A DNA stretch of 64,000 bases, taken from NCBI RefSeq assembly GCF_014201145.1, contig NZ_JACHDP010000001.1, forward strand, positions 2,790,001 through 2,854,000, written 5' to 3'. Made by a program: the position numbers and the translations under genes. A model generated the notes under the pieces. That model was not told the origin of the DNA. It worked only from the letters and a program-made list of their open reading frames with translations, and did no database searches. The stretch's first letter is position 1. Every line of letters begins with the position of its first letter. The stretch is from Micromonospora parathelypteridis. Its GTDB lineage: Bacteria; Actinomycetota; Actinomycetes; Mycobacteriales; Micromonosporaceae. Shown in pieces: positions 18,778-52,186 of this stretch.

Positions 18778-19944
18778 ATGCCGTATTACCGCAGCGTCGG
18801 CGAGGTGCCGCGCAAGCGCCACACCCAGTTCCGTCAGCCCGACGGCAGCCTCTACGCCGAGGAGCTGATGGGCCAGGAGGGGTTCTCCTCCGACTCGTCC
18901 CTGCTCTACCACCGGCACGCGCCCACGGCGATCCTGGCCGCCGACGAGTTCGCCCCAGCCGCGTTCACCCGGGCACCGAACCTGCCGCTCAAGCCCCGCC
19001 ACCTGCGCACCCACAAACTGGACACCGGCGGCGTCGACCCGATCCTCGGCCGGCAGTACCTGCTCGCCAACGACGACGTCCGGATCGGGTACGTGCTCGC
19101 GGACCAACCCTCGCCGCTGTTCCGCGACGCGACCGGCGACCACTGCCTCTACGTCGAGTCGGGCACCCTGCGCGTCGAGTCCCCGTTCGGGGTGCTGGAC
19201 GTGGTCGCCGGCGACTACGTCATCATCCCCACCTCGACCATCCACCGACTGGTGCCCACCGGCGACCAGCCCGCCCGGCTGCTCACCATCGAGGCGTCCG
19301 GGCACATCGGCCCGCCCAAGCGCTACCTCTCGGTCCGCGGCCAGTTCCTGGAGCACTCGCCGTACTGCGAGCGCGACGTCCGCGGCCCCGACGCCCCACT
19401 GCTCGTCGACGACGAGGAGGTCGAGGTGCTGGTCCGCCACCGTCGTGGCTGGACCCGCTACGTCTACGCCAACCACCCGTTCGACGTGGTCGGCTGGGAC
19501 GGGCACCTCTACCCGTGGGCGTTCTCCATCCACGACTTCGAGCCGATCACCGGCCGCATCCACCAGCCCCCGCCGGTGCACCAGACCTTCCAGGGCCCCA
19601 ACTTCGTCATCTGCTCGTTCGTGCCCCGCAAGGTCGACTACCACCCGCAGTCGATCCCGGTGCCGTACAACCACCACAACGTCGACTCCGACGAGATGCT
19701 CTTCTACACCGGCGGCAACTACGAGGCCCGGCGCGGCTCCGGCATCGAGCAGGGCTCGATCTCACTGCACCCGTCCGGTTTCACGCACGGCCCCCAGCCG
19801 GGTGCCGCCGAGCGTTCAATCGGCGCGGACTACTTCGACGAGTTGGCCGTCATGGTCGACACCTTCCGCCCCCTGGATCTCTGCGACGCCGCCAGCAACT
19901 GCGAGGACGAGGGGTACGCCTGGACCTGGGCGCGTTCTGCCTAG
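18778..19944 (+). CDS. hmgA: Homogentisate 1,2-dioxygenase
   Basis: Ring-cleaving non-haem iron enzyme producing maleylacetoacetate; 388 residues, within the shorter actinobacterial range. Likely Fe ligands are His300 and Glu306 (YNHHNVDSDEMLFY) and His337 (HPSGFTHGPQPG), with the spacing of the family. The cupin core starts at GDHCLYVESGTLRVESPFGVLDV. The ATG at 18778 follows GGGAGGCGAG. The gene is divergent from fahA and is followed by a palindromic element that may also end its transcript. Confidence 0.97.
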   Translation: MPYYRSVGEVPRKRHTQFRQPDGSLYAEELMGQEGFSSDSSLLYHRHAPTAILAADEFAPAAFTRAPNLPLKPRHLRTHKLDTGGVDPILGRQYLLANDDVRIGYVLADQPSPLFRDATGDHCLYVESGTLRVESPFGVLDVVAGDYVIIPTSTIHRLVPTGDQPARLLTIEASGHIGPPKRYLSVRGQFLEHSPYCERDVRGPDAPLLVDDEEVEVLVRHRRGWTRYVYANHPFDVVGWDGHLYPWAFSIHDFEPITGRIHQPPPVHQTFQGPNFVICSFVPRKVDYHPQSIPVPYNHHNVDSDEMLFYTGGNYEARRGSGIEQGSISLHPSGFTHGPQPGAAERSIGADYFDELAVMVDTFRPLDLCDAASNCEDEGYAWTWARSA

Positions 19945-19953
19945 TCGGCCTTT

Positions 19954-20027
19954 GGGTTTTCGCCGGAGCCCACCCGCTCTGGGCGGTCAGGCTTGATCCC
20001 GACGCGGGCGGGCTCCGGCGAAAACCC
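19954..20027. repeat. Family A palindromic element, copy A1
   Basis: 74-bp palindrome: 18-bp perfect outer arms (19954-19971 and 20010-20027, GGGTTTTCGCCGGAGCCC and complement), a one-base bulge, an inner CCCGC/GCGGG stem, and a loop with the core GGGCGGTCAGGCTTGATCCC. The same core occurs in two copies inside the gene at 49725. It lies 10 bp after hmgA and may also act as its terminator. Confidence 0.9.
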
Positions 20028-49541: not shown

Positions 49542-49724
49542 GACGACGATCCAGTCCTCGAGAAGGGGTACCGGTCGATCGCAAGTATGCGCCCGGCCTG
49601 CCGAACCAGGACAAGCATGTGTGAAAACGTTCACCGCCGAAGGAAGTGCCCCTTGTCACCTGGTCCGGCGCACCGATGACCGTAGGGTCGGCACGGTGAC
49701 GCACCCTGAACTCGGAGTGAACTG

Positions 49725-51002
49725 ATGTCGATCCTGTGGCGGGACGCGATGAGCCAGGCCCTCTACGGGCCGGGCGGCTTCTTCGTCACCGACACCGGGC
49801 CGGCCGACCACTTCCGAACCAGCGTGCACGCCTCCCGCGCCTTCGCCACCGCGCTCCTACGCCTGATCACCGAGGTTGACACCGCCCTCGGCCACCCGTC
49901 GCGCCTTGACGTGGTCGACGTGGGCGCCGGGCGTGGGGAGCTGCTGCGAACCATCCATGAGGCCGTCGGGGTTGCGGTGGGGGTTTCCGGGGAGCCCACC
50001 CGCTCCGGGCGGTCAGGCTTGATCCCTCCGCGGGCGGGCTCCCCGGAAACCCTGACTCCCACGGCCTCCGCCGGCGAGCCGTCGTTGGTTGCCGTTCGTC
50101 CGTCGCTTGCGGAGCGGGTGCGGTTCACGGCAGTGGAGTACGCGGTCCGCCCCGAGAACCTGCCCGAAGAGATCGACTGGGTGTCCGAGATTCCCGGTGA
50201 GATCACGGGAGTGCTGCTGGCTACCGAGTGGCTGGACAACGTCCCGCTGGACGTGGCGGTGCACACCACCGATGGCTGGCGATACGTGTTGGTCGATCCC
50301 GAGAGTGGCACGGAAACGGTTGGTGAGCCGGTCAGTCCTCCTGATCTTGATTGGCTGACTACCTGGTGGCCCGGCCCCACGAGTCCTCGCAGTACGAACA
50401 GTCCCCCTGATCCGGGGCTGACCTGGACCGACGCGACCAGCGCTAGCGAGTCGGGTTTCGGGGCAGCCCGGCCGGCGCAGGGATCAAGCCTGACCGCCCG
50501 GAGCCGGCCGGGCTGCCCCGAAACCCCCCACAGCGACCACCCACGAGCCGAAATCGGCCGAAGCAGGGATGAGGCCTGGGCCAACGCAGTCCGGAAGATC
50601 AGCCGAGGGCTGGCGGTGGCGGTGGACTATGGGCACCTCAGGGAGGGCCGACCTGTCGACGGGACGTTGACCGGGTACCGGGATGGGCGGCAGGTGCCCC
50701 CGGTGCCGGACGGGACGACTGATGTGACCGCGCACGTCGCCATGGACTCGGTCGCCTCCGGTGGTGCGGCGGTCGCCCGGTGTGCGTACTCCCTGGTCCT
50801 GCAGCGGGAGGCGCTGCGCGCGCTCGGGGCCGACGGCGGCCGACCGCCGCTGAGCATGGCCGGCACCGACCCGGCGGGGTACGTGCGGGCGCTGGCCGCC
50901 GCGTCGGAGGTGGCCGAGCTGACCGACCCGGCTGGACTCGGTGGGCACTGGTGGCTGCGCCAACCGGTCGGCATCCCGCTCGGCCCGGGCGTGGCACGAT
51001 GA
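49725..51002 (+). CDS. NDUFAF7/MidA-family SAM methyltransferase interrupted in frame by two palindromic elements
   Basis: Protein of 425 residues related to MidA/NDUFAF7, arginine methyltransferases that act on the NDUFS2/NuoD subunit of complex I. Seen here: N-terminal FRDAM-like [19 protein letters not shown] motif [12 protein letters not shown] (64-72), EWLDNVP (168-174), DEAW and DYGH (301-304), and [12 protein letters not shown]. Two stretches have no family counterpart: about 86-110 and 243-268, and both coincide exactly with hairpin elements A2 and A3. Despite them the frame is open, and the stop overlaps the nuoD start (ATGA), which argues that it is expressed. Whether the enzyme is active is not known. 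Confidence 0.85.
49981..50052. repeat. Family A palindromic element, copy A2 (in frame)
   Basis: 72-bp palindrome with 17-bp perfect arms (49981-49997, 50036-50052), an inner CCCGC/GCGGG stem and loop core GGGCGGTCAGGCTTGATCCC. Its 72 bp equal 24 codons, so it can be inserted without frame change. Encodes residues about 86-110 of the methyltransferase ([20 protein letters not shown] in part), in a surface loop after SAM motif I. Confidence 0.9.
50453..50526. repeat. Family A palindromic element, copy A3 (inverted, in frame)
   Basis: 74-bp palindrome with 23-bp perfect arms (50453-50475, 50504-50526); the 28-nt loop contains the reverse complement of the A1/A2 core. Encodes residues about 243-268 ([20 protein letters not shown] in part). 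Its orientation is opposite to A2 in the same gene. Confidence 0.9.
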
Positions 51003-52186
51003 CGGGCATGACCACCGACGCCGGGGACCTCCGTGAACTGACCGTCGGCACCGGGGCCGGCCTCGTCGCCGGCACCGGCGATCAGCAGCTCGGCACCGAC
51101 ATGGTGCTGAACATCGGCCCGCAGCACCCCTCCACGCACGGTGTGCTGCGGCTGAAGCTGGTGCTCGACGGCGAGCGGGTGGTCGCCTGCGAACCGATCA
51201 TCGGCTACATGCACCGGGGTGCCGAGAAGCTCTTCGAGGTGCGTGACTACCGGCAGATCATCGTGTTGGCCAACCGGCACGACTGGCTCTCGGCGTTCTC
51301 CAACGAGTTGGGCGTGGTGCTCGCGGTCGAACGCCTGATGGGCATGGAGGTGCCGGAACGCGCCACCTGGCTGCGGATGGCGCTGGCCGAGCTGAACCGG
51401 GTGCTCAACCACCTGATGTTCCTCGGCTCCTACCCGCTGGAGATCGGGGCGATCACGCCGATCTTCTATGCCTTCCGGGAGCGCGAAACCATCCAGGCGG
51501 TGATGGAGGAGGTCTCCGGCGGCCGAATCCACTACATGTTCAACCGGGTGGGTGGCCTCAAGGAGGAGGTGCCGTACGGGTGGACGGGCCGGGCCCGCGC
51601 GGCGATCGGCGAGGTGCGCCGGCGGTTGCCCGACCTGGACCATCTGATCCGACGCAACGAGATCTTCCTGGCCCGGACCGTGGGCGTGGGCGTGCTGTCC
51701 GCCGCTGACGCCGCCGCGTTCGGCGCGTCCGGGCCGGTGGCCCGCGCCTCCGGGCTCGACCTGGACCTGCGCCGCGACGACCCCTACCTGGCGTACGACG
51801 AGCTGGACGTGCCGGTGGTCACGCGGACCGCCGGGGACTGCCACGCCCGCTTCGAGGTGCTGCTGGACCAGGTGTACGCGTCGCTGGACCTCGCCGACCA
51901 GTGCCTGGACCGGGTGGACCAACTGACCGGGCCGATCAACACCCGTCTACCGAAGGTGCTCAAGGCGCCGGAGGGGCACACCTACGCCTGGACGGAGAAC
52001 CCGCTCGGCATCAACGGCTACTACCTGGTGTCCCGCGGGGAGAAGACGCCGTGGCGGTTGAAGTTGCGCACCGCCTCGTACGCGAACGTGCAGGCGCTGG
52101 CCACCCTGCTCCCCGGGTGCCTGGTGCCGGATCTGATCGCGATCCTCGGCTCGATGTTCTTCGTGGTCGGCGACATCGACAAGTGA
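50999..52186 (+). CDS. nuoD: Orphan NADH-quinone oxidoreductase subunit D (NuoD homologue)
   Basis: Homologue of the 49-kDa complex I subunit, 395 residues. Quinone-site landmarks [13 protein letters not shown] (40-52) and the Arg73 in MHRGAEK match NDUFS2 positions around His59 and Arg85, the site methylated by NDUFAF7. At the position of the quinone-binding Tyr (Tyr108 bovine, Tyr87 Thermus) this protein has Trp96 (HDWLSAF). It stands alone: no other nuo gene is in the window, and a complete nuo operon presumably exists elsewhere. The ATG overlaps the methyltransferase stop. A second-copy or specialised role is an inference. Confidence 0.9.

Follow-up and report, generated by a model that had tools for sequence, protein, structure and literature searches.

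Hairpin elements of Micromonosporaceae and their two in-frame copies in the midA methyltransferase gene of Micromonospora

The gene encoding a MidA/NDUFAF7-type methyltransferase in Micromonospora parathelypteridis carries two palindromic elements, A2 and A3, inside its open reading frame. Both belong to a family of hairpins found across the Micromonosporaceae, and both are present or absent at the same two sites in orthologues of the genus. In the reading that we favour as somewhat more probable than otherwise, they derive from a palindromic mobile element of the Micromonosporaceae, non-autonomous and similar to REPs and MITEs, which entered midA early in two insertions and was then lost in frame many times. 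Palindromes within reading frames are known as a curiosity of Rickettsia and Wolbachia. Among the matches listed from the open-licence literature, none described such elements for Micromonospora or the Micromonosporaceae, in agreement with the preliminary description, which knew of no such case in Micromonospora; one Actinoplanes genome paper mentioned neither palindromes nor hairpins.

The elements lie in a window of 64,000 nucleotides, i.e., the whole stretch of DNA analysed (Table 1). A2 and A3 share the 17-nt core GGGATCAAGCCTGACCG in opposite orientations, on the minus strand in A2 and on the plus strand in A3. The arms of A2 were 23 nt long (49981–50003/50030–50052) and 96% complementary, and those of A3 were 30 nt long (50453–50482/50497–50526) and 93% complementary. 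The folding energies were −62.2 kcal/mol for A2 (z = −6.3) and −68.5 kcal/mol for A3 (z = −8.4), with 0 of 200 shuffles as stable in either case, and −60.7 kcal/mol (z = −7.4) for the intergenic copy A1. Three exact core matches were found in the window versus 0.30 expected even with three mismatches allowed; the combined hairpin and core pattern is far beyond chance. A search of Rfam with positions 49700–51010 gave no match at the gathering score, and below it gave microRNA-type hairpins and one antisense-RNA match.

The host ORF has no interruption according to both the sequence and the ORF list, and its product matched Pfam Methyltransf_28 (PF02636) with 67.9 bits against a curated cut-off of 23.3, which upholds its earlier naming as an NDUFAF7-like methyltransferase. 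Weak, partial sequence matches were obtained with 1zkd DUF185 (E = 5.7e-07) and the 5ztz NDUFAF7 homologue (E = 0.0066). An AlphaFold2 model of the protein had a mean pLDDT of 34.3 (47 close sequences, the diversity of which was probably too low), and the inserts were placed in the fold from sequence alignment to 1zkd and from length variation; the two linkers that house them are probably surface loops. The TGA at 51000–51002 overlaps the ATG at 50999, which is in frame with the NuoD-like ORF, in line with the coupling of the stop to nuoD given in the preliminary description. The dN/dS ratio of midA was 0.15–0.27 (317 codons, seven orthologues), indicating that the gene is constrained and ruling out a pseudogene. 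The open frame, the complementarity of the arms and the dN/dS ratio together bear out the original account of A2 and A3 as real in-frame elements, correctly delimited, in an intact gene.

Table 1. Coordinates of the midA locus and of the hairpin elements in the window
Feature	Position	Strand	Remarks
MidA/NDUFAF7-type SAM-dependent methyltransferase gene	49725..51002	+	425 aa plus stop, ATG start; houses A2 and A3
NuoD-like gene	50999..52186	+	ATG 50999 overlaps MidA stop; NuoD assigned by eye from motif
Element A2 (region 1, R1)	49981..50052	-	72-nt hairpin 3' of GRGEL motif; ~residues 86–110
Core of A2, GGGATCAAGCCTGACC	50011..50026	-	exact match
Element A3 (region 2, R2)	50453..50526	+	74-nt hairpin ahead of EIGRxRDEAW segment; ~residues 243–268
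Core of A3, GGGATCAAGCCTGACC	50480..50495	+	exact match
Element A1, same family, intergenic	19954..20027	-	directly behind stop of + gene ending near 19943
Core of A1	19985..20000	-	exact match to 16-nt core

The genome from which the window was taken (G000; 7.01 Mb, single contig) contained 12 matches to the 16-nt core and 0 matches to a reversed-pattern control. All 12 copies were located within 1.22–3.99 Mb, i.e., in 2.8 of 7.0 Mb. A covariance model built from these copies recovered all 12 places, with hits on both strands at ten, and no further place with E ≤ 0.01 among the 150 of 18526 first-look candidates that were scored, a scope within which decayed copies may be missed. The tip of the hairpin, approximately 28 nt around GGGATCAAGCCTGACC, was near-invariant, whereas the arms diverged widely between copies yet remained complementary: among the 12 paralogues, 18 of 28 stem pairs had changed on both sides with pairing kept, and when one representative was taken from each of 49 positional clusters, the two arms of an element matched better than 95% of swapped arms in 43. 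Paired arm changes were also seen by eye at fixed sites between species (clusters 2, 3 and 8). Template-switch repair of quasi-palindromes could likewise yield such paired changes. A flank motif, C[CA]GC[AG]ACC, was present to the right of the hairpin in 10 of the 49 clusters and mirrored on the left in one. At locus L232 (~1977–2170), two intact cores on the same strand were separated by 175 nt, and the interval contained a related but decayed stretch with an altered core.

The 17-nt core was detected in 147 of 300 Micromonosporaceae genomes belonging to 17 of 44 genera, with 0–28 copies each and with 0 for the control among the matches listed; copy number spanned the same range, 0 to 28 per genome, inside one genus. 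A wider draw gave the core in 33 of 61 genomes, namely, in 32 of 37 from the genus and in 1 of 24 from outside the family. Named records with the core, among the matches listed, belonged to Micromonospora, Actinoplanes, Plantactinospora, Hamadaea and Verrucosispora. It should be noted that the genome surveys, the named records, the fixed-site comparisons of arms and the cluster, arm-swap, 197-site, 187-site and identical-copy counts all start from exact or one-mismatch cores and thus have an intact core by construction; the midA copies, which were found via the protein, and the covariance-model searches are less subject to this ascertainment. In 12 genomes, 83 loci formed 27 positional clusters, 15 of which were common to at least two genomes (cluster 1 certainly merges places, as it holds two or three loci from single genomes). 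Orientation agreed in 144 of 151 locus pairs of shared clusters, and the discordant pairs belonged to clusters 1, 9 and 14, of which cluster 9 is the A1 spacer. Several draft contigs (C370 and C52 of G028, C195 of G088, C18 and C22 of G089) start inside elements or within ~200 nt of them, as if hairpins had broken the assemblies there.

Orthologues of midA were found in 60 of the 61 genus genomes searched, and all 60 loci were read. The segments had been expected to be absent from relatives with an otherwise collinear protein; instead, the R1 element and the R2 element were each present in 23 of the 60 orthologues (some loci being partial and not scorable at both sites), at the same sites and in the same phases, and the elements are accordingly optional and old. 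R1 was on the minus strand of the gene in phase 1 in 22 of 23 orthologues, and all 23 R2 elements were in phase 2 on the plus strand. The exception, L030, had the usual region 1 arms with an inverted loop in phase 0 and a frame that was still open, a result of either arm-to-arm inversion or separate insertion. The frame of midA appears disturbed at L070. All 46 elements at the 60 loci, recovered both by a scan with ≤2 mismatches inside ORFs and by the covariance model over whole loci, were within an open frame; their phase was constant despite varying spacer lengths, and partial deletions within them preserved the frame. These regularities bear on the idea that translation bypasses the hairpins by ribosome hopping, as happens with the mitochondrial GC clusters of Magnusiomyces, so that the peptides are never made: hairpins in the mRNA would be very stable and bypassed hairpin insertions in coding regions have been described (PMC8811140), but a hop needs neither an open frame nor a constant phase, and we regard it as highly improbable. 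The midA hairpins are more probably translated.

Presence and absence of the elements varied inside species labels, e.g., chokoriensis, zamorensis and saelicesensis. Among the best 120 database proteins, 71 carried both elements, 23 carried R1 only, 22 carried R2 only and 4 carried neither; these states were judged from simple peptide patterns, and a small number of them may be wrong. In a 56-orthologue tree, from which the partial loci L019, L032, L037 and L070 were left out and for which NuoD was available in 48 rows, both R1 and R2 were scattered over the entire genus. Fitch parsimony required 13 changes for R1 and 10 for R2, versus means of 17.6 and 16.0 and minima of 13 and 11, respectively, in 500 label shuffles. 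A single gain would require 18 losses for each site, and together with the Fitch counts this makes re-gain or exchange at the midA sites possible. In-frame scars derived from the arms were found in 9 of 32 R1-empty and 7 of 31 R2-empty genes scored, by short peptide patterns picked after the alignment had been viewed, some of the scars being weak (L057, L048); most empty genes had no scar. In 25 midA orthologues from 15 other Micromonosporaceae genera, no element was found, and both linkers were mostly short (region 1 was not measurable in four). Two of them, L286 and L287, had longer repeat-like peptide stretches without the element core in region 2. Apart from these two proteins, the result is in line with the earlier statement that these regions have no counterpart in the protein family.

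The pairwise divergence of R1-bearing genes (n = 21) was 0.355 at fourfold silent sites, 0.000 in the core, 0.057 in the surrounding 37 nt and 0.061–0.068 in the arms. The corresponding values for R2-bearing genes (n = 19) were 0.355, 0.007, 0.034 and 0.072–0.076; the loci L019, L032, L037 and L070 and the inverted R1 of L030 were left out here. Third codon positions within the R1 and R2 cores (5 and 6 sites, respectively) had no variation. A core that is near-frozen against silent sites diverging by 0.355 was unexpected and means that the nucleotide sequence itself is held or that the copies are renewed. Since a dead mobile copy should decay, these values count against a passive passenger and are more readily explained by a function for the host or by continual renewal. 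Of the possible reasons for the exactness of the core, the most interesting is that the hairpin is recognised and either has a function or is protected by a partner.

In another explanation, midA would be the target of repeated site-specific insertion or homing, the copies being young and at a favoured site rather than old and inherited. The near-zero divergence of the core, with arms at 0.06–0.08, is what such copies would have, and the patchy distribution behind the Fitch counts, the opposite orientations of the element in the A1 spacer of different species (see below) and the inverted R1 copy of L030 point the same way. However, by eye each midA site has one arm type across species, and phase and strand are constant save for the one inverted loop; arm scars remain in frame in some empty genes, and the orientation shared by most locus pairs of intergenic clusters likewise speaks for inheritance. 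Repeated insertion appears quite unlikely, and early insertion in midA is the more plausible course.

The position of the elements relative to genes was analysed in 47 clusters that do not lie inside genes (187 sites), for which genes were predicted with an in-house codon score that had been trained on 6850 codons of the window. In 41 of the 47 clusters, the gene on the right (in the orientation of the core) has its 3' end towards the element, and its stop was located within 60 nt on the right-hand side in 32 of 47 versus 9 of 47 on the left. Only 1 of the 47 element clusters was in a divergent gap versus 148 of 463 control gaps (32 of the 463 controls were convergent). The preferred orientation prevailed in tandem (15 vs. 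5) and convergent (18 vs. 6) clusters (pooled p = 0.0013). Clusters were joined by flank similarity, so that some may merge two places, and the 187 and 197 sites include orthologous sites, some of them twice (named records overlap the genomes surveyed), and are not all independent. In a two-sided coding test, 8 of 197 element sites passed, seven of which were MidA and the eighth probably a spurious frame. The codon-score gene caller, which is cruder than this test, assigned an intragenic position to 12 of the 187 sites and to 2 of the 49 clusters, and the non-MidA cluster was unsupported by the two-sided test. MidA is the only credible host gene among the 197 element sites tested. Close pairs of elements (L099, L111, L147 and L184, and others in G250, G258, G219, G166, G243, G205, G287 and G264) had a core on the minus strand followed by one on the plus strand; this is the order expected at convergent genes, and A2 and A3 in midA follow it as well.

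The orientation and placement behind stops, the invariance of the core in midA and the covarying arms, also at fixed sites, are all features that a host control element of gene 3' ends would have, i.e., a terminator, mRNA stabiliser, processing site or protein-binding site with an invariant recognition core, of which the midA copies would be misplaced or dual-use examples. This explanation has to reckon with 0 to 28 copies per genome in one genus, which means that no site is needed, with neighbouring genes of apparently unrelated functions (by eye) and with hairpins that are followed by no U-run (by eye). Moreover, A2 and A3 face opposite ways within a gene that is translated, and the copy in the A1 spacer differs in orientation between species. 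We consider control of 3' ends a tentative and rather unlikely explanation. Also rather unlikely is a reading in which a trans-acting factor reads the core in DNA or RNA, the core is selected even in frame, midA is dual-coded, and a directional process independent of Y1 delivers the hairpins behind stops. If this were true, the hairpin and not the protein would freeze the silent positions of the midA core codons, and copies with a mutated core would mostly be deleted as naked palindromes, leaving scars yet few decayed copies.

With regard to the mobile element that we favour, copies were found to have spread: 74-nt elements were 100% identical at loci with unrelated flanks, namely, L135/L141 and L141/L142 of G035 and L150/L153 of G006. 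The A1 site was filled in G047 and G039. The entire spacer was absent in G030, G029, G034, G002, G052, G056 and G028. Remnants were seen in G048 and, weakly, in G033, and the anchors were too far apart for alignment in G024 and G006. In the A1 spacer (window 19954–20027; L146, L149), the copy of G000 was opposite in orientation to those of G032 and G006, which indicates that the copies there are not simply one inherited insertion. Loss has thus occurred in the A1 spacer, along with an inversion or an independent insertion. Among the empty A1 sites, neither precise excision of the element only nor a target duplication was seen. Movement was probably carried out by an enzyme. Transposition driven by RAYT was rejected, as Y1_Tnp (PF01797) had no match in G000 at E ≤ 0.001, with positive results in 5 of 14 control genomes. 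Within four pairs in minus/plus order (L147, L184, L099 and L111) and the tandem pair L232, no recognisable transposase or parent transposon was detected by eye; these five loci hold only spacers and one ORF resembling that of a secreted protein.

The element was compared with known systems. Rickettsia palindromic elements (RPEs) were described in 19 reading frames (PMC2229807), and 44 integrations are given in PMC10969869. As in the present case, a palindromic repeat is inserted into the frame of a gene for a conserved protein, the resulting protein is apparently tolerated, and orthologues have an insert at the same locus (PMC3767692). In contrast, RPEs are 105–146 bp in size and occur in many genes (PMC2229807), whereas the Micromonospora hairpin is 72–74 nt, is low-copy, has one credible host gene, and differs further in its near-invariant core, freely covarying arms and bias behind stop codons. 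The analogy drawn in the preliminary description therefore covers the outcome, a palindrome in frame in a protein gene, but not the many-gene habit, because MidA is the only credible host.

REP sequences are hairpins located mostly downstream of genes, between convergent or co-directional genes, with some inside genes (PMC3733652), and the position of the Micromonospora element downstream of genes, with a single divergent cluster, agrees with this. However, REPs are 20–40 bp, abundant and tagged with GTAG or CGTC (PMC3733652), whereas the present copies are 72–74 nt with 0–28 per genome, end at the hairpin foot in TGAC or CGTC-like sequences that are not constant (by eye), and have no accompanying RAYT (Y1_Tnp) in G000. 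The main text of that REP paper mentions neither Actinobacteria nor Micromonospora (PMC3733652). The GC clusters of the yeast mitochondrial var1 gene are likewise short palindromes rich in GC, which lie mostly between genes, are optional and occur in frame in a single coding gene (PMC8811140), but they are mitochondrial, have been described with unidirectional inheritance and gene conversion, and change fastest in the loop (PMC8811140), whereas the tip is the most conserved part of the Micromonospora element. Bacterial MITEs are non-autonomous, have inverted repeats and are known from in-frame fusions (PMC2229807, PMC10969869). The identical copies at unrelated loci in G035 and G006 are MITE-like; in contrast to MITEs, no target duplication or parent transposon was seen at the A1 site or in the five loci read, no conserved terminal repeat was found, and the arms diverge between copies.

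Region 2 of midA also contained an unrelated palindrome, FAM2, with arms GATCAAGARGTTYGCGTC and a size of ~55 nt in L028. It was present in 9 of 56 orthologues and never together with the R2 element among these 56. Region 2 of the FAM2 type was seen in L028, L063, L036, L057, L061, L065 and L069. The FAM2 half-site was detected in 51 of the 61 genomes of the genus, mostly in several copies and with up to 145 in G049, and it was not found in the window. The presence of FAM2 indicates that the linker tolerates palindromes.

In the favoured reading of a mobile element, the unit would be a hairpin of ~72–74 nt with a near-invariant tip of ~28 nt and arms of ~23–30 nt that are free to change while pairing, and it would usually settle directly behind a stop codon in a preferred orientation. 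Early in Micromonospora, two copies may have inserted, in frames free of stops, into two linkers of midA that vary in length. Both hairpins would be read through by the ribosome, yielding an enzyme with two extra peptides of ~25 residues each, which would be tolerated and are presumably neutral. Later, the copies would have been kept as hairpins or lost repeatedly by in-frame deletion, sometimes with short arm-derived scars left behind, while in other lineages the same linker would have taken in the unrelated palindromic family.

Thus, the midA gene of Micromonospora offers a GC-rich actinobacterial case of in-frame palindromes and amounts to a natural experiment, since alleles of this conserved gene with an element, without one or with a scar occur both genus-wide and within species. 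Two questions are thereby made testable, namely, whether a protein tolerates a peptide encoded by a hairpin and whether a DNA or RNA element can freeze silent codon positions.
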